This document shows positions 12,144 through 47,233 of a stretch of 64,000 bases of DNA, in pieces (positions within the stretch are counted from its first letter, which is position 1; every line of letters begins with the position of its first letter). The translations under genes and the position numbers were made by a program. The notes below the pieces were generated by a model. The model searched no databases. It saw only the letters and a program-made list of their open reading frames with translations, and was not told the origin of the DNA. The DNA lies in contig SHMT01000006.1 of NCBI GenBank assembly GCA_004282745.1, forward strand, positions 62,001-126,000. Reading direction: 5' to 3'. Origin of the DNA: Candidatus Scalindua sp. SCAELEC01 (GTDB lineage: Bacteria > Planctomycetota > Brocadiia > Brocadiales > Scalinduaceae).

Positions 12144-13610
12144 ATGGCACCATTACAAAAGCAGATGGTTAATATGATTAAGAACTTTAACCTTTTTGAT
12201 AAGAAAGACGCGATTTTAGTAGCAATTTCCGGAGGACCAGATTCTGTTGCACTCCTTAATCTTCTCACCCAGACCAACAAAATTGAAAACATCTATTCAA
12301 AACTCTATTTAGCCCATTTAAATCACTTACTAAGAGGAGAAGAGTCGGAACGGGATGAACAGTTTGTCAGAGATATAGCCAGAAATTGTAGCATCCCTAT
12401 CATCATTGAACAGAGGAATATCAGACAGAGTGCCCGTATACGGAAACTATCTCTAGAAGAGGCCGCACGTGAGGAGAGATATGATTTTCTTGGAGAAGCA
12501 GCTAAGCGGTTTAATACTCATGTGATTGTGGTTGGTCATACTGCCGATGATAATGCGGAAACGATACTACATAGGATAATAAGGGGTACAGGAATTATTG
12601 GGCTGACTGGTATAAGGCCAAAGCGGAGACTTTTGCCCACTTCAAAGGTTAATCTTGTGCGTCCATTGTTAACAATATGGAGAAAAGATATTATTGCTTA
12701 TTTAAAAACGATGAAAATTCCTTATAGAACTGATTCAACGAATCTCAGCACTGATACCTTTCGAAGCAGGTGTAGAAGAGAACTTATTCCACTTCTTGAA
12801 AAAAATTACAATGCTAAAGTAAAGCTATCACTCGGGAAATTAGGAGAAATATCAACACAAAGCTACAATTATTTGCAGTCGGAAGCAGATCGATTGTTTG
12901 AAAAGGTTTTATTAAGCAAAAGGGGAGAAGTCGGAACTGCTTTTCAAGGTATCACATTAGACCTTACTCTTTGTAGAAAGAGTCCTGAAGTTTTACAACA
13001 GATTTTCATGAAGAAAGCTTTGGAGTACTTAAGGGTACCACTTAAAAACTTTGGGAATAAACAGTATACGTGTCTATTAGATGTGCTTAAGTTGGAATGC
13101 CGGTATATGAGGCGGCGCATTAACCGTTATGTAACCGTTGAAATAAAAAACAATACTTTATGTCTCTTTAAAGAGAAAGATCAAGTTGATACTAAGCCTA
13201 TCTTAGAAGAGGTAACACTGCTGGTACCAGGAGAGACGAGGTCAAAAGGGTTCGCGTATACGTTTAAGACAGAAATAAGAGCAATCACGGGTCAGTTTTT
13301 GGAGCAATATAAACGGAACAAGAAAAGATATGAAGAGGTTGTTGATTTGAGAGAGATCAAGATGCCACTCACCGTCAGGACACGGAGAGTGGGAGACAGG
13401 TTCTCTCCATTGGGATCTAACGGTTCTAAAAAACTTAAAGATTTTTTCATCGATAATAAAGTTCCTCAACGGGAACGGGCCACAATTCCCATAGTAACGA
13501 TGCGGGATCAACCTATCTGGGTCGTGGGATATAGGATAGACGAACATATCAGAGTTACCGATAAAACGGAGAAATTACTGATAATGAAGGCCGTACAACA
13601 TAAAAAGTGA
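12144..13610 (+). CDS. tilS: tRNA(Ile)-lysidine synthase
   Basis: TilS lysinylates C34 of the CAU-anticodon isoleucine tRNA so that it reads AUA. The N-type ATP-pyrophosphatase loop ISGGPDS is near residue 27, followed by AHLNHLLRGEES and GHTADDNAET. The C-terminal TilS domain includes RRVGDRFSPLGS and KKLKDFFID. I choose ATG 12144 (488 residues). The open frame reaches 12045, but those extra 33 residues are hydrophobic and untypical. Abundant ATA codons in the window agree with a need for this enzyme. miaA follows 25 bp later, so two anticodon-loop modification genes sit together. Confidence 0.93.
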   Translation: MAPLQKQMVNMIKNFNLFDKKDAILVAISGGPDSVALLNLLTQTNKIENIYSKLYLAHLNHLLRGEESERDEQFVRDIARNCSIPIIIEQRNIRQSARIRKLSLEEAAREERYDFLGEAAKRFNTHVIVVGHTADDNAETILHRIIRGTGIIGLTGIRPKRRLLPTSKVNLVRPLLTIWRKDIIAYLKTMKIPYRTDSTNLSTDTFRSRCRRELIPLLEKNYNAKVKLSLGKLGEISTQSYNYLQSEADRLFEKVLLSKRGEVGTAFQGITLDLTLCRKSPEVLQQIFMKKALEYLRVPLKNFGNKQYTCLLDVLKLECRYMRRRINRYVTVEIKNNTLCLFKEKDQVDTKPILEEVTLLVPGETRSKGFAYTFKTEIRAITGQFLEQYKRNKKRYEEVVDLREIKMPLTVRTRRVGDRFSPLGSNGSKKLKDFFIDNKVPQRERATIPIVTMRDQPIWVVGYRIDEHIRVTDKTEKLLIMKAVQHKK

Positions 13611-14764: not shown

Positions 14765-15628
14765 ATGTCAATTACGTATAAACAGCTAAAGACGCTTGAA
14801 GAGTTAAGGCCTTGCGAAAATCTGCAGAAGACGGTATGGAAATTTAATAAGAGCGACATAATACCCTCGAGATTTATGCGGGTGTTGTGTAAGCATGGTG
14901 GATTCGCAATGGGCGCTTTTGACGATGAGACTATGATTGGCTTTGTGTTTGGTGTTCCGGCAATTCATTATGGAAGAGCGTCACAACATTCCCATATGTT
15001 GGCGGTACTTCCGGAATATCGCAATCAAAACGTGGGATTTCAATTAAAAATAGAGCAACGGAAAGATGCCCTTAGCCGCAATATAGACCTCATCACCTGG
15101 GCATTTGACCCGCTCCAATCCAAGAATGCCTATCTTAATATAAACAAGTTAGGCGTTATTGCCTGTAGTTATGATATAAATCTGTATGGGGAAGAAACCT
15201 CCAGTAAACTGCATAGCAGTCTGGGAACTGACCGGTTGCTTGCAGAATGGTGGTTGGTGAGTGATAAAGTTACCTCTCTTATGGAAGGCCGGAGACAAGA
15301 AGTTGGGGGGAAAGACTCTGTGGATGGCACAAGCATAAACAGGAGGAAGAGGGACAAAAAGAGCTTTCTCATCCCAGTTGAACCAGATCTAACCCTTAAA
15401 AATGGAGTCTTATTATTAGAGATACCGGACAACATTGACAAAATCAAAGAGGAGAATATGGAAATTGCACTCAAATGGCGCAACCTTGTTCAGAAATCCC
15501 TTCTCCACTATTTTGCGAATGGTTATTATATTAGTTCCTTTCTGGTTGAACGGGAGAATGCGACACACCGAAGCTCCTATATTCTTGAACGGCTCACAAA
15601 ACCATACAAATCGATGACTATCGATTAA
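14765..15628 (+). CDS. GNAT-superfamily acetyltransferase (COG3375 type)
   Basis: This 287-residue protein resembles the GNAT group often encoded beside N-acylamino-acid racemase/o-succinylbenzoate synthase genes. A GNAT core is visible in HSHMLAVLPEYRNQNVGFQL (the acetyl-CoA pyrophosphate loop, with Q-N-x-G). ITWAFDPLQSKNAYLNINKL is a hallmark of this group. A possible partner (enolase-superfamily racemase) lies at 22665. In characterised pathways such a GNAT acylates D-amino acids before racemisation. The assignment here is by family only. Confidence 0.75.
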   Translation: MSITYKQLKTLEELRPCENLQKTVWKFNKSDIIPSRFMRVLCKHGGFAMGAFDDETMIGFVFGVPAIHYGRASQHSHMLAVLPEYRNQNVGFQLKIEQRKDALSRNIDLITWAFDPLQSKNAYLNINKLGVIACSYDINLYGEETSSKLHSSLGTDRLLAEWWLVSDKVTSLMEGRRQEVGGKDSVDGTSINRRKRDKKSFLIPVEPDLTLKNGVLLLEIPDNIDKIKEENMEIALKWRNLVQKSLLHYFANGYYISSFLVERENATHRSSYILERLTKPYKSMTID

Positions 15629-15720
15629 AAATACCTCTTGTCCACATTATGGACTTCGCCTTTTAATAGTAATTTTTTATTCAATTAAGTCTCCAAGAAT
15701 TCAATAGTAGGAAAAACGGT

Positions 15721-17247
15721 ATGTCAGGGGGAAAATCTGGAAAAGTGTTCTTGTTTCTCATGGTTGTGGGAATACTCTTTGGTATTGTTGTTGGAGGATT
15801 TTTACCAGAAACAGGAAAACAGATAGCATTCATAGGGGATTTTTTTATCAGTTATTTAAAAATGCTTGTTATTCCGCTCGTCATTACCTCAATGATTGCC
15901 GGAGTTACTGGCCTGGGAGATATTAGAAAATTAGGAGGCTTAGGAAAAAAAACGATTCTGTATTATCTGGCAACAACGGGTTGTTCGGTCCTGATAGGGA
16001 TTATTTTGGTTGTTATCATTGGCCCGGGAAAAGCAGATACAAAGGAAGAGCAATTAAAACTACGGGGAGGAGCATCTTTACCAGCGTTATCTTATACCAT
16101 ACAAGGTAATCAAATTACGTTTGATCAAGATCTGGGAAAAATAAGATATGATGAGAGGTACATGATCATTCTTGGTGACCAGAATAGTATAAAGGGAACG
16201 ATTAGCGAAATGAGAGATGGAAAAACTTGTATTGTTCGTAATTGGGTTAAGAGGGAAAGAAATAGCAACAAGATTGTGGAGGCAAGACCGGAGACGAAGG
16301 GAAAAGGGGTAGAGTTCGATCTTTCGATCTCAGACAAAATTTTACAAAAACAGGGGAAAACGATTGGAAGCACTTTAAAGGAAGTTTTTTTAAGCCTTGC
16401 TCCAAACAATCTCATTAAAGCGATGTCAGAAACAAAGGTCTTACCTATCATTGTCTTTGCAATGATAATAGGTGCAATTCTTACAACACTTGGAGAACCG
16501 GGCAGGCCTGTAATCGCTTTTTTCCATGGATCAAACGAGGCAATTTTAAAATTTGTACAACTGTTAATGTTTATAGCGCCTTTAGGAATTGGATGTTTGA
16601 TTGCTGGAAAAATGGGTGCTGCTGGCGGAATAGAAAAATTTGGGCTTGAATTCAAAAAAATTGGGTTCTATGCCATGACGGTACTGCTTGGATTATGTGT
16701 GCATGCGCTTGTCGTCCTTCCACTCATTTTGAAAATTTTTACAAAGCGAAATGTAATTTCCTATGCACAAGGGGCAAGTACCGCTTTATTAACCGCATTC
16801 AGTACCGCCTCGAGTTCGGCAACCCTACCGGTAACCATTAAGTGTAGTGAAGATAAGAATCAAGTTTCCCCAAGAGCAGCAGCTTTTGTTTTACCCCTCG
16901 GTGCTACTATCAACATGGATGGAACCGCCTTATATGAAGCGGTTGCCGCAATCTTTATTGCACAGTTATATGGTATCGATTTAGGTATCGGTCATTTAAT
17001 AGTAATATTCTTAACCGCCACACTGGCAGCTATTGGGGCAGCAGGTATTCCAGAAGCCGGACTCGTAACAATGGTAATTGTATTGGAAGCAGTTGGTTTG
17101 CCAATAGAAGGGATCTCAATGATTTTAATGATTGACTGGTTTTTAGACCGATGTCGCACTACGGTAAACGTATGGGGAGATTCCGTTGGGGCCGCGGTCA
17201 TAGACATTGGCATAAGGACTAGGTTAAAAAATAGCACGTTAGGTTGA
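15721..17247 (+). CDS. Dicarboxylate/amino-acid:cation symporter (DAACS) with an inserted loop
   Basis: This is a membrane carrier of the GltP/DctA/SstT family, which imports glutamate, aspartate or C4-dicarboxylates with Na+ or H+. Diagnostic motifs are the first hairpin region AFSTASSSATLPVT, the substrate/cation helix NMDGTALYEAVAAIF, and DRCRTTVNVWGDSVGA near the end. At 508 residues it is about 80-100 longer than usual. The excess is a hydrophilic stretch (about 105-205) between the third hydrophobic segment and the NLIKAMSETKVLPI region, rich in Lys, Asp and Gly, and predicted extracytoplasmic. Confidence 0.9.
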   Translation: MSGGKSGKVFLFLMVVGILFGIVVGGFLPETGKQIAFIGDFFISYLKMLVIPLVITSMIAGVTGLGDIRKLGGLGKKTILYYLATTGCSVLIGIILVVIIGPGKADTKEEQLKLRGGASLPALSYTIQGNQITFDQDLGKIRYDERYMIILGDQNSIKGTISEMRDGKTCIVRNWVKRERNSNKIVEARPETKGKGVEFDLSISDKILQKQGKTIGSTLKEVFLSLAPNNLIKAMSETKVLPIIVFAMIIGAILTTLGEPGRPVIAFFHGSNEAILKFVQLLMFIAPLGIGCLIAGKMGAAGGIEKFGLEFKKIGFYAMTVLLGLCVHALVVLPLILKIFTKRNVISYAQGASTALLTAFSTASSSATLPVTIKCSEDKNQVSPRAAAFVLPLGATINMDGTALYEAVAAIFIAQLYGIDLGIGHLIVIFLTATLAAIGAAGIPEAGLVTMVIVLEAVGLPIEGISMILMIDWFLDRCRTTVNVWGDSVGAAVIDIGIRTRLKNSTLG

Positions 17248-20691: not shown

Positions 20692-21759
20692 GTGGTAAAT
20701 CTTTATAAATGGATATTCCATAGATATGGTGCGATAGTTGAAAATAGTGAGAATTTTGAAAAGCCTTTATTAAATAATGCTAACCATATTGCCAGAATTT
20801 TGTATCGTTTAACAGAATATCGTTGTCTTAGTTGGCATAGGTTATGCCACGGCGTACCTATACAAGATATCATCCTAAGTGAGTTCCCATTAATTGCACC
20901 ATGTCATCTTGCACCAGCGATAGTTACATTTGAGTTTACAAATCACTGCAATCTTCAGTGTGTTTATTGTGATAACAGGCTGAATCTGCGTCCAAAAGGA
21001 TTCATGCACAGGGACACTTTTGTAAATGTTGTTGCGGGTATAAAAAAGCTTGGAGTAAAGCGAGTGAGAGTTGTTGGCAATGGAGAGGCCACTCTACATC
21101 CCGATTTTGATTCGTTTATGACAGAAATTGGTAGCACTAATGCCTACGTTTCGGTGCTAACGAATGGCCAGTGGAGACATCAGGAGGATACAATCAATAC
21201 TATGCTCACAGCAAAAGTAAACATGGTTGAATTTTCAGTTGACACGGTAACTAAGAAGGGCTATGAACGATCACGCCAAGGAGGAAGTTTTGAGCGTCTT
21301 CTTTCAAACTTGCAACATTTCAAAGAAGCCAAGAAAAAGCAACGCTCACAAGTAATCACCAATATACGGTTAATGTTACGCCCCTCAGAACGGCGAATTG
21401 AATGGAAACTGAAAGCCTTCTGGAGTAATTATGCCGATATTGTAATGCCTCAGTACCTTTGCGAGAAGCGATCAATATCGTATAATGAAGACCTGTACAG
21501 ACCGATCCAATTTAACGAGCAATCTTATCCAAATTGTAAAGAACCTTTTACTCAACTTGGCATAACTTGGAATGGTGATGTGCCGCTATGTAGTCTTTCA
21601 GCGGATCAAATCGGAGAACCAGGTCTTATTCTTGGTAATGTTACATCGAGCACGATTGGTCAACTATGGAACAGTAAGGTCTTACATCAGTACCGCAGAG
21701 GTCATAGAAACCGAGAGACTTCCAAGATGGCAATGTGTAAAGGTTGCGTTGGCATGTAA
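20692..21759 (+). CDS. Radical SAM protein with SPASM-like C-terminus
   Basis: This 355-residue radical SAM enzyme has the 4Fe-4S motif CNLQCVYC near residue 84, preceded by FEFTNH. A glycine-rich SAM region VRVVGNGEATLHP follows. The C-terminus contains cysteines in a SPASM-like arrangement (CKEPF, PLCSLS, MCKGCVGM) for an auxiliary cluster. Such proteins modify peptides or proteins, or act in cofactor and lipid metabolism; the substrate is unknown here. The start is GTG 20692 with GAAGGA about 8 nt upstream. It is not in an operon. Confidence 0.85.
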   Translation: MVNLYKWIFHRYGAIVENSENFEKPLLNNANHIARILYRLTEYRCLSWHRLCHGVPIQDIILSEFPLIAPCHLAPAIVTFEFTNHCNLQCVYCDNRLNLRPKGFMHRDTFVNVVAGIKKLGVKRVRVVGNGEATLHPDFDSFMTEIGSTNAYVSVLTNGQWRHQEDTINTMLTAKVNMVEFSVDTVTKKGYERSRQGGSFERLLSNLQHFKEAKKKQRSQVITNIRLMLRPSERRIEWKLKAFWSNYADIVMPQYLCEKRSISYNEDLYRPIQFNEQSYPNCKEPFTQLGITWNGDVPLCSLSADQIGEPGLILGNVTSSTIGQLWNSKVLHQYRRGHRNRETSKMAMCKGCVGM

Positions 21760-43591: not shown

Positions 43592-43737
43592 CAAGTTAAA
43601 CTAAAACTACCCACCTACTGCGTTTCTGTAATCATTTCGTAATCCTCACGTACTTGTGTACGTTCCGGTTCCGAAATGATTACGCGTCTTGTATCTGGGC
43701 AGTTTTAGTTCAACTTGCGGGTTTCCGTTCAGCAATT
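43592..43737. repeat. Family B palindromic element (long-arm copy)
   Basis: The left arm is AGTTAAACTAAAACTACCCA. The right arm is CTGGGCAGTTTTAGTTCAAC, extended by the GCGGGTTTCCGTTCAGCAA long arm. Central halves CACGTACTTGTG and GTACGTTCCGG are typical of the family. TA flanks are not clear. Confidence 0.75.
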
Positions 43738-44108: not shown

Positions 44109-44285
44109 TTACGGCGAGAATGCACCAAAAAACCCGGCCGTAATCTTTGTTGCGTCACCCTGTTTCGTGAGCTTCGGTTCAACAAACGTTAATTTCGGGT
44201 TCGTAAAGCTCTTTTTCCCTTCTGCACAATCCAGGCCCTTCTCTTGAATCTCTTTTCGTCTCATTGACTGTCTTTTTAACATCAT
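44109..44285 (-). CDS. 58-residue RiPP-like precursor with lasso-type leader motif
   Basis: The frame starts at ATG 44285 (a second ATG is at 44282). A strong GGAGGAG lies 6-7 nt upstream, better than at most genes here. The peptide is basic at the N-terminus and ends KITAGFFGAFSP. Residues 34-49 fit the lasso-leader pattern (Y/F)xxPxLxxxGxxxxxT exactly: F34, P37, L39, G43, T49. In lasso precursors that Thr is the penultimate leader residue, so the core would begin at G51 and be GFFGAFSP. That is too short and lacks the Asp/Glu needed to close a lasso ring. An upstream PKLT (30-33) partly duplicates the leader's PKLT (37-40). It follows the NHL-repeat gene on the same strand. No RRE, transglutaminase-like or asparagine-synthetase-like gene is in the window. 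Confidence 0.7.
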   Translation of the reverse strand: MMLKRQSMRRKEIQEKGLDCAEGKKSFTNPKLTFVEPKLTKQGDATKITAGFFGAFSP

Positions 44286-44536
44286 TTTTTACTCCTCCAT
44301 GTTTTTAACTGATAAACTCTTCTCAAATCACAAACTTCAGGTACAAGGTCGAATCGGTACTGTATCTTGCAAAACCCTATTATCAATTGTACCGGTTACC
44401 AATCCGTACTCCCCCTATCGGGGCTCCCTCTATCCGAGTGGTCTTTAGTTAGACCGCGTTTTACACGTGCTAACTGACCACTCACTCATCACCTCTTCTC
44501 TTGGGACAGCTGCATCATCTCCCTACAGACCTCCCT

Positions 44537-47233
44537 TCAGCCTCCAGCTGGAGAGTGAAGGGACCTCTTTACACCGAGCAGGTCGAGCTGGAGGGTAAAG
44601 GGGCCGCTATCATGGAGACCAATAACAAAGTCCACGCTCATCGATTCTCCCGGCGGCAGCGTGTCATTGTCAAGATCGGGGGTCACTGTCTCTCCTGCAC
44701 CGCCGGGTCCTCCATCGGCGTTCAGGAGGAGGTTGTCTCCGCTCAGCTCCACCACCAAAAAGAGGGGGATTATGATAGGTGTTGTGCTTCTGTTGGTAAA
44801 CGTTGCCGTTATGGTGAAGGTGCCTTTCGGGGCATCCGGTGCAGGTGTCGAGTCAAAGCTTTTCTTTACCGGCAACTCCTGAGAGATCTGATCATTTACG
44901 ATCAGATCTACCGTCTGACCGGGAGCTAACTCTACCGGAGCTTCTCTCCCCTTAAGCGTAATATCAATAAGTACGGTATCGGTATTGGTCGATGGTGCCG
45001 TTAGCGTGAAGGGGTCGGGCAGAAAGGTGAACGCGCTCCCCTCAGGCAGGCTGCCACTTGCCGTAAAGCCGTTTACGTCTGTAAAGAGGGCATCTATGGT
45101 ACCCTCCTTGACATCAATATCAGCGCTCCCGTCCTCCGCATGGGAGCCCCCGCCCTCAACAAGGGCGCCCCCACAAGTCACCACCGCCTCGTCTCCGCTA
45201 TCCATGGTGAGGCGGGTGCCTGTTCCGCAGGCGGTGATCACAGCAGGTTCCAGACCTCCTAAGGAGTCTACCTTAATCCTGACCCCTCCGGGTGCAGGCT
45301 CATCCGTTATCGTAAGGGCCTGATCTCCCCGGTCGGCAATGGTGCCGGAGGTCGTCCCGCCAAAGGCACTATCGCTAAAGTCGTCGCCACTGACCGGCTC
45401 CGGCCTGAATACCTGGATGCGGTGGTTTAATGTGTCGGCAACGTAGACATTCCCGCTTCTGTCCACTACGCTTCTCCGGGGATAGCGAAACTTCCCGATC
45501 TCAAAGCCATAGCTGCCGAATTGTGAGAGGAATCTCCCCTTTGAATCAAACTTCTGGATACGATGATTCTCAGTATCAGTAACATAGAGGTCACCCTTAC
45601 TGTCCACGGTAATGCCTATTGGGATCTTAAACTCTCCACTCCCCGATCCCTCACCGCCAAACTTCAACAATAAGTTGCCATGAGGGTCAAATTTCGCGAT
45701 AATATTATTGATTGTGTCAGTAATATAGATGTTTCCCTCACTATCTAATTCAATACCACTTGCAATGGAGGGTTTCTCCTCTAGAGTACCACTTACATCA
45801 ATCTTAGACAGGAAGTTGCCATTGGTATCAAATTTCTGAACACGGCCATTATGAAGCTGTCGACGAGCATCGTATACATTATCTGCCACATAGACGTTGC
45901 CGTCACTACCGATTGCAATATCTGTCGGGCTTTCAATCTCACCTTCGCCGCTGCCAATCGATCCAAAAATCAAGAGGAGTTCCCCGGTAGATCCAAGTTT
46001 GAGGACCTCTTGTCGCCTATCGTCACCACTTCCTGGCGTAATAGCAACGAAGATGTTCCCCTCATCATCGACGTCTATGAAGGCTATTTCAACATCGTCA
46101 TCAACCGGCCTGAATTCTGTGATAAAGTCCCCTTGAGGACTAAGCTTCTGGATACGTATAGGATTGCTAAAGCCGTCCGCAACATAGATGTTGCCTTCCC
46201 TGTCCAGAGCAATATCTGATGGTTCGTTAAAGCGCCCGGGGATCGTCCCCCTTGTCCCAAACTGGGCCAAGACAGTGCCGTCTGGATCGAACTTCTGGAT
46301 GCGGTTTCTCTCTAGATCCACAAGATAAAGGTTGCCGTCTGGATCAAAGGTTATGAGAGATGGTCCGTGAAAGTCCCACCTGCCGGAGCCATCAGGTTCC
46401 AATTTGGAAAGAAAGTTGCCCTCAGGGTCAAACTTTTGAACACGACTGAGGCTCCGTTCAACGACATTGATGTTTCCATTTCCGTTAAGTGCTATGTAAA
46501 TCGGGGCAAGAAACTGTCCATCTCCTTTGCCCTGAGTACCGAATTTCAAGAGAAAGTTGCCGTTGGAATCAAACTTCTGAATCCGGTGGTTCTCCGGATC
46601 AGCCACATAGATATTTCCCTCACTGTCAAGGACAATATCAGCCGGACCTCCAAACCGACCAAACTGTCCATCTCCTGTACCCTCTGTTCCAAATTTCATC
46701 AGGAAATTGCTATCGGAGTCAAACTTCTGGATGCGGTAGTTCCTGGAATCTGATACATAGATGTTATCCGATTGGTCAAGTGTTATGAGGCTTACACTCT
46801 CAAACTGACCATTCCTGCTGCCTCGTGAGCCAAATTTCAGTAGGAAATTGCCGTCAGGATCAAACTTCTGTATATTGTTATTGCGTGAATCGGTAGCATA
46901 GATACGCCCCTCTCCGTCCAGGGCAACTCCTGCTAGAACTTCGAACTGGCCGTCCCCCGTTCCTCTTGTACCGATGCGAAACAGTTCCTCTCCTTTCGGG
47001 CTTAACTTAACAATATGATTTCTGCCTGACGTTGTATAAATGTTCCCAGTTCCATCAACCGCTAAATCCTGCACAGCATCAAGAAAAACTTGCCCATTCG
47101 GAATAGTGAAGAGCTGAGAGTATTGGGCGTGTACTGGATTTATATACATAACAAATGCTATCACAGTAATAACTGATATTATTACCGTGATACAAACGTC
47201 TTTCAGCCATGTGATAATGGACATTTTCTTCAT
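44537..47233 (-). CDS. Exported NHL-repeat beta-propeller protein
   Basis: An 898-residue extracytoplasmic protein. A hydrophobic segment (about 12-32, ending PVHA) is the export signal. About twelve to thirteen NHL repeats follow (to about residue 610), each with a form of GNIYVADxxNHRIQKFDxxGNFL and GTGDGQF, probably making two propellers. The last 280 residues are two beta-rich domains, one of carbohydrate- or anchor-type character, ending LGVKRSLHSPAGG. The repeats may bind protein or polysaccharide. The 3' part of the gene is GC-richer than the rest. It lies between the phosphoesterase remnant and the RiPP-like peptide on one strand. Confidence 0.88.
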   Translation of the reverse strand: MKKMSIITWLKDVCITVIISVITVIAFVMYINPVHAQYSQLFTIPNGQVFLDAVQDLAVDGTGNIYTTSGRNHIVKLSPKGEELFRIGTRGTGDGQFEVLAGVALDGEGRIYATDSRNNNIQKFDPDGNFLLKFGSRGSRNGQFESVSLITLDQSDNIYVSDSRNYRIQKFDSDSNFLMKFGTEGTGDGQFGRFGGPADIVLDSEGNIYVADPENHRIQKFDSNGNFLLKFGTQGKGDGQFLAPIYIALNGNGNINVVERSLSRVQKFDPEGNFLSKLEPDGSGRWDFHGPSLITFDPDGNLYLVDLERNRIQKFDPDGTVLAQFGTRGTIPGRFNEPSDIALDREGNIYVADGFSNPIRIQKLSPQGDFITEFRPVDDDVEIAFIDVDDEGNIFVAITPGSGDDRRQEVLKLGSTGELLLIFGSIGSGEGEIESPTDIAIGSDGNVYVADNVYDARRQLHNGRVQKFDTNGNFLSKIDVSGTLEEKPSIASGIELDSEGNIYITDTINNIIAKFDPHGNLLLKFGGEGSGSGEFKIPIGITVDSKGDLYVTDTENHRIQKFDSKGRFLSQFGSYGFEIGKFRYPRRSVVDRSGNVYVADTLNHRIQVFRPEPVSGDDFSDSAFGGTTSGTIADRGDQALTITDEPAPGGVRIKVDSLGGLEPAVITACGTGTRLTMDSGDEAVVTCGGALVEGGGSHAEDGSADIDVKEGTIDALFTDVNGFTASGSLPEGSAFTFLPDPFTLTAPSTNTDTVLIDITLKGREAPVELAPGQTVDLIVNDQISQELPVKKSFDSTPAPDAPKGTFTITATFTNRSTTPIIIPLFLVVELSGDNLLLNADGGPGGAGETVTPDLDNDTLPPGESMSVDFVIGLHDSGPFTLQLDLLGVKRSLHSPAGG

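Follow-up and report, generated by a model that had tools for sequence, protein, structure and literature searches.

The window analysed here, a stretch of DNA of 64,000 nucleotides, contains a short gene for a putative precursor peptide, which lies 251 bp downstream of a gene for an exported NHL-repeat protein. The earlier note on this DNA had described a 58-codon frame with a strong ribosome binding site, in line with the NHL-repeat gene, without naming a strand. Its description stands: both genes are on the minus strand, and a Shine-Dalgarno sequence precedes the frame. The features of the locus are as follows.

44109-44285, minus strand: precursor peptide gene, 58 codons, translation MMLKRQSMRRKEIQEKGLDCAEGKKSFTNPKLTFVEPKLTKQGDATKITAGFFGAFSP*, member of a conserved family of homologues
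44292-44298, minus strand: Shine-Dalgarno sequence GGAGGAG, with spacers of 6 nt to the first ATG and 9 nt to the second
44190-44207, minus strand: second FxxPxL copy, F27-T-N-P30-K-L32, 7 residues upstream of the first; F27, P30 and L32 invariant
44139-44186, minus strand: leader recognition motif F34-x2-P37-x-L39 ... G43 ... T49, invariant in a 15-sequence alignment
44112-44135, minus strand: predicted core peptide GFFGAFSP, family consensus [FL]F-x-x-F-x-P; F53 and F56 invariant, F52 nearly so
44537-47233, minus strand: exported NHL-repeat protein, 898 aa, with a signal-peptide-like N terminus, upstream of the precursor
44564-44872, minus strand: C-terminal Ig-like domain of the NHL-repeat protein, about 103 aa, with no FFGRFRP tail

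Homology makes the second ATG of the 44109-44285 frame, at 44282, the likelier start. An inverted-repeat element with 27-nt arms (85% complementary) and an inner palindrome occupies positions 43592-43717, between a hisC-like gene and the precursor.

The precursor family, its leader and its core

The earlier note had proposed searching the genome for paralogues and related genomes for homologues, and both exist. One paralogue, with 77% identity, lies on another contig of the same genome (C14), and homologues were found in 11 other Brocadiales genomes (best E 5e-23). The family is present in 12 of 62 genomes of this order; the relatives that carry it are anammox bacteria, among them a Candidatus Scalindua genome (G001) of the window's own genus, and its occurrence is patchy within genera. 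A scan of bacteria and archaea with one genome per species yielded homologues in four MAGs outside the Brocadiales, one each of Deltaproteobacteria, Nitrospiraceae, Thermodesulfovibrionia and Desulfosarcina. Pfam contains no family for the precursor.

Residues 34-49 match FxxPxLxxxGxxxxxT exactly, as the earlier note had observed. Cleavage after A50, with the core starting at G51, would place F34 at -17, P37 at -14, L39 at -12 and T49 at -2. The spacing published for lasso leaders is YxxPxL at -17 to -12 with Thr at -2 (PMC10368454), and the window leader has it, with Phe in the first position. The leader pattern was found once among the small frames of the window, compared to 0.017 expected in shuffled sequences. 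Matches of the peptide to the NCBIfam lasso leader models are sub-threshold, and 14 of the 15 family members match the lasso_cyano model weakly. Invariant positions in the alignment are F27, P30-K-L-T-F34, E36-P-K-L39, G43-D-A-T46, I48-T49, F53 and F56; they include residues of both FxxPxL copies, which are presumably both in use.

The start of the core is predicted from the position of the Thr at -2. The earlier note had asked whether GFFGAFSP is conserved: in the intact homologues, the FFxxFxP core is kept together with F(-17), P(-14), L(-12) and T(-2) of the leader. Examples of cores are GFFGAFSP, GFFGSFTP and SFFGTF; the residues between the Phe positions, the length of the core and the distance from T(-2) to FF all vary. 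One locus carries two tandem precursors (L050:9977-10378), the second of which has a divergent core, FSIPFSPIPN.

A probable maturation cluster with a radical SAM enzyme

No maturation genes for the precursor were found in the window, which had led the earlier note to call for a trans-acting enzyme set. A suitable cluster does exist in the same genome, around the paralogue on contig C14. Its gene order is: beta-helix-like exported protein with a C-terminal domain, precursor, HprK-like kinase, GNAT acetyltransferase, radical SAM protein, PqqD protein (B1), B2 protease and NTP_transf_5 nucleotidyltransferase; two small unrelated genes lie among them. The same order is seen in Scalindua, Brocadia, Jettenia, Loosdrechtia, the 'Deltaproteobacteria' MAG, Thermodesulfovibrionia and Desulfosarcina, and in the Nitrospiraceae locus as far as the contig reaches. 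GNAT is present in only some clusters, HprK is absent or broken in some loci, and a search of the clusters by eye showed no dedicated exporter.

The genome has two PqqD/RRE genes, and its B2-type protease gene corresponds to the transglutaminase-like protease for which the earlier note had suggested a search. With homologues in related genomes and RRE genes in this one, two of the conditions that the earlier note had named as refuting its reading do not apply. B1 matches Pfam PqqD (PF05402) with 66 bits, above the cut-off, and resembles the solved TbiB1 (E 8e-5), while B2 scores 50.4 bits with the NCBIfam lasso B2 model NF033537 (cut-off 33). B1 and B2 combine an RRE with a transglutaminase-like leader peptidase, as in lasso clusters. 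In the cluster kinase, residues are present that fit the His-Lys-Asp-Asp motif described for lasso kinases (PMC9266682).

The radical SAM protein, which had no place in the earlier reading, is likely to be the class-defining modifier. It is of the SPASM type and has a CxxxCxxC motif, to which the C-terminal part adds five conserved Cys; its predicted fold (pLDDT 74) is nearest to BlsE, PqqE, SkfB and SuiB; its scores lie far below every NCBIfam equivalog cut-off, and these give no indication of its reaction. The gene is present in 10 of the 12 precursor-positive Brocadiales genomes and in none of the 50 precursor-negative ones. Precursor, RRE and radical SAM/SPASM protein are clustered, as in the broad class of RRE-dependent radical-SAM RiPPs. 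The earlier suggestion that the peptide is the substrate of a different RRE-guided modification is now the likely one.

In two genomes, Scalindua G001 (L031:11996-12985) and Anammoxibacter G019 (L032:8626-9618), codon 316 of the radical SAM gene, near the C terminus, is an in-frame TAG. This codon specifies Trp in other genomes, and the conserved sequence goes on past the TAG in G001; the TAG may reflect truncation, readthrough or pyrrolysine. The sole radical SAM match in the window is a radical SAM/SPASM-like protein of 355 aa (20692-21759), with 22% identity to the cluster enzyme.

Probable exported partner proteins and a shared C-terminal motif

On sequence grounds, the neighbouring NHL-repeat gene is not incidental to the precursor. 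Its significance, missed by the earlier note, lies in its C-terminal domain, which co-occurs with the precursor and is found in this protein, in the beta-helix-like neighbour of the C14 precursor and in other exported proteins. A model of the domain (pLDDT 83) shows an Ig-like beta-sandwich; the domain is absent from Pfam, and no PDB entry matches the model better than E 6e-3. Among the 62 Brocadiales genomes, it occurs in 10 of the 12 that are precursor-positive and in none of the 50 others. In a phylum-wide sample of 392 genomes it was found in nine, all of them precursor-positive, and in 0 of 381 negatives. The Fisher p values (6e-10 for Brocadiales, 1e-16 for the phylum sample) do not account for shared ancestry, an objection that is weakened by the patchy distribution within genera. 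The link is not absolute, since two precursor-positive genomes lack the domain, one of which (Brocadia pituitae) is complete. The window genome has 15 copies of the domain, G019 has 21 and Brocadiaceae have 1-4, which are mostly beside a precursor; next to the remaining domain proteins of the window genome, no additional precursor-like peptide was detected.

The precursor and the domain proteins repeatedly have small STN/FecR_C-like proteins of about 113-190 aa as neighbours (L020:9986-10327, 12397-12696 and 15452-15763; also in L031, L032, L034, L047 and L050). Some of these begin with a signal-peptide-like sequence.

In most Brocadiaceae domain proteins (10 full-length ones from the loci read, and two further ones), a basic linker follows the domain and leads to a C-terminal FFGRFRP or a close variant of it, the same motif as the peptide core FFxxFxP. 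One of these tails matches further upstream, into the end of the leader (ATRISGNGFFGRFRP, compared to ATRITGNGFFSAFVP in the precursor of another Brocadiaceae genome). In one Jettenia protein, the domain is located close to the N terminus and there is no tail. At the DNA level, the pattern FFGRF[RYH]P gave 14 matches in the 62 genomes, of which three are unrelated; the other 11 belong to domain proteins of precursor-positive genomes and lie at the C terminus or no more than nine residues from it. Domain proteins of Scalindua, Anammoxibacter and the non-planctomycetes stop at or shortly after the domain and have no tail.

The looser DNA pattern FFxxFxP was uninformative. Its surplus in family f2 comes from a palindromic intergenic repeat, GATTCTTCGGTCGCTTCGCTCCCTCAGAATGACA, and not from protein tails; the repeat, whose context was inspected in G027 and G029, is abundant in G020, G023, G027 and G029 and reads FFGRFAP in one frame. 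Another DNA repeat accounts for the surplus in G019. The Brocadiaceae protein tails do not contain GATTCTTCGGTCGCTTCGCTCCCTCAGAATGACA and are therefore not products of it.

Proposed pathway and competing explanations

The sequences themselves show the conserved family, its clusters without a cyclase, the co-occurrence and the shared motif; from these we infer the order of the enzymes, the modification, the cleavage site, service in trans and function. The 58-codon frame is a genuine gene and probably encodes a functional RiPP precursor, which would be modified by the radical SAM enzyme, recognized and cut by lasso-type machinery, and partnered with exported domain proteins. In this pathway, the stand-alone PqqD-type RRE (B1) would bind the leader and present the C-terminal FFxxFxP core. 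The SPASM-type radical SAM enzyme would then modify the core, in place of a lasso cyclase, possibly by a cross-link or another change at the Phe residues, the invariant ones being obvious candidates for radical chemistry. Cleavage after T-x by the lasso-type B2 cysteine protease would release a peptide of about 6-14 residues. The HprK-like kinase and the nucleotidyltransferase could tailor Ser/Thr by optional phosphorylation or glycosylation, by analogy with paeninodin and pseudomycoidin (PMC9266682), and GNAT, where present, could tailor the peptide further. As the window holds no cluster genes, its solitary precursor is best read as a second substrate, without enzymes of its own, that would be served in trans by the C14 cluster.

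The product would act together with the exported beta-propeller and beta-helix proteins that bear the C-terminal Ig-like domain, and its function is probably coupled to these proteins outside the cytoplasm. In Brocadiaceae, the FFGRFRP tail of most of these proteins would be a genetically fused counterpart of the core. More tentatively, a single recognition motif, FFxxFxP, may be encoded in two ways within one organism, as a leader-guided, radical-SAM-modified peptide core and as the fused tail of exported Ig-like-domain proteins. The peptide would then be a detachable counterpart of the tail and might serve as ligand, plug, anchor or competitor for the domain or its receptor. We found no description of such a role for a RiPP. 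Co-occurrence with the domain and reuse of the core as a protein C terminus suggest that the peptide acts in structure or targeting and not as a typical antibiotic, and the link to partner proteins is a directly testable hypothesis.

A rather unlikely explanation is that the core is a protein-sorting or anchoring signal, with the enzymes acting on FFGRFRP tails in the manner of an exosortase or similar system and the small peptide serving as helper, decoy or competitor and not as a natural product. Within Brocadiaceae, the motif is shared at the C terminus and occurs together with a single domain family, carried by exported proteins that otherwise differ, and in one tail the match reaches the leader end, all of which would suit such a signal. 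However, the tails lack the EPKL recognition motif and no hydrophobic anchor follows them. Moreover, the domain proteins of Scalindua, Anammoxibacter and two other lineages (L047 and L050) have no tail despite the presence of the cluster.

Decay of the window gene into a non-functional duplicate of the C14 precursor is, in our view, improbable. The gene is solitary, without maturation genes of its own, and its N-terminal part is the most divergent; a partial precursor copy is also known, in Brocadia G046 (L036:2082-2219, HGDATKITGAFFNVFYP), where it overlaps an intact one in another frame. Nonetheless, dS to the C14 paralogue is 0.45 and dN 0.15 (for one short gene), and the resulting dN/dS of 0.34 indicates purifying selection on the window copy. 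Against G001, the ratio is 0.31; the comparison of synonymous with nonsynonymous changes gives p 0.013. The ribosome binding site and 5' region are kept (about 45 bp upstream are also alike between the two paralogues), the core is intact, and the gene is paired with a domain protein, as at other loci. The earlier note had left decay open as an alternative, and this part of its interpretation is not supported, given the selection and the conservation of leader and core in intact homologues. The rest is supported: a RiPP-like peptide, now with a conserved family and an enzyme cluster, a lasso-style leader, a non-lasso core and enzymes in trans.

That the gene encodes an ordinary lasso precursor, with a cyclase elsewhere in the genome, is very improbable. 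Leader spacing, B1, B2, kinase and nucleotidyltransferase are all known from lasso clusters, and the genome has five full-length Asn_synthase genes, but these are on contigs other than that of the cluster. No Asn-synthetase-like cyclase was found in any locus with flanking sequence, the radical SAM protein taking its place in the cluster. The cores have no Asp or Glu at positions 7-9 with a tail that could thread, and the distance from T(-2) to FF is variable, in agreement with the earlier view that the core cannot form a lasso.

Equally improbable is a redox cofactor precursor like PqqA or MftA: PqqD and a radical SAM/SPASM protein with a short C-terminal core would fit, and the radical SAM protein finds one of its best, though distant, matches in the mycofactocin maturase, but the score is far below the cut-off, core length and the residues between the Phe positions vary, the distribution is patchy within genera, and PQQ and mycofactocin precursors have invariant modified residues, Glu-Tyr or Val-Tyr, whereas the core here has neither pair and its motif no Tyr.

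The closest known systems include the HprK-kinase lasso clusters of paeninodin and pseudomycoidin (PMC9266682), with which the proposed radical-SAM-modified RiPP system shares the leader spacing, T(-2), split B1/B2, the HprK-like kinase, the nucleotidyltransferase gene and sometimes an acetyltransferase. It differs from them in lacking a cyclase and an acceptor Asp/Glu, and in having a radical SAM protein and a duplicated FxxPxL; the family would use lasso-type recognition and proteolysis without lasso cyclization. The broad kind was already foreshadowed by RRE-Finder, in which some 300 discrete RREs of the lasso type are noted as neighbours of radical SAM enzymes (PMC7470986). The loci may overlap with ours; the part of that report dealing with this set gives no class, precursor or function, whereas precursor, core motif, B2 and exported partners are defined here. 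The SynChlorMet cassette (ScmC, ScmD, ScmE/F; TIGR04248-TIGR04251) also joins HprK-like, PqqD-like and radical SAM/SPASM proteins, but scores with ScmC, ScmD, ScmE and ScmF are 17.7, 32.7, 71.6 and 79.7 bits, compared to cut-offs of 125, 100, 400 and 400; our literature search found no paper describing this cassette. PEP-CTERM/exosortase systems have diverse exported proteins with a common C-terminal signal that co-occurs with a processing system; in Brocadiaceae, the tails resemble such a signal, with a processing system that is a predicted one. Unlike in those systems, no exosortase-like gene was noticed in the clusters, the tail has no transmembrane segment, and the putative signal is encoded a second time, as the core of a leader peptide with its own gene. 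In the literature searched, neither the precursor family nor the exported partners nor the tail they share with it is described; this RiPP family of anammox bacteria and some other lineages, with its conserved precursor, core and enzyme set, is apparently undescribed.

The window's genome carries a second locus with PqqD, HprK-like and nucleotidyltransferase genes, on contig C17 (L021:651-9086). It also contains a small frame ending (SKP)n...KFSFF and an acyl carrier protein/AMP-ligase pair, and is possibly another uncharacterized peptide system.
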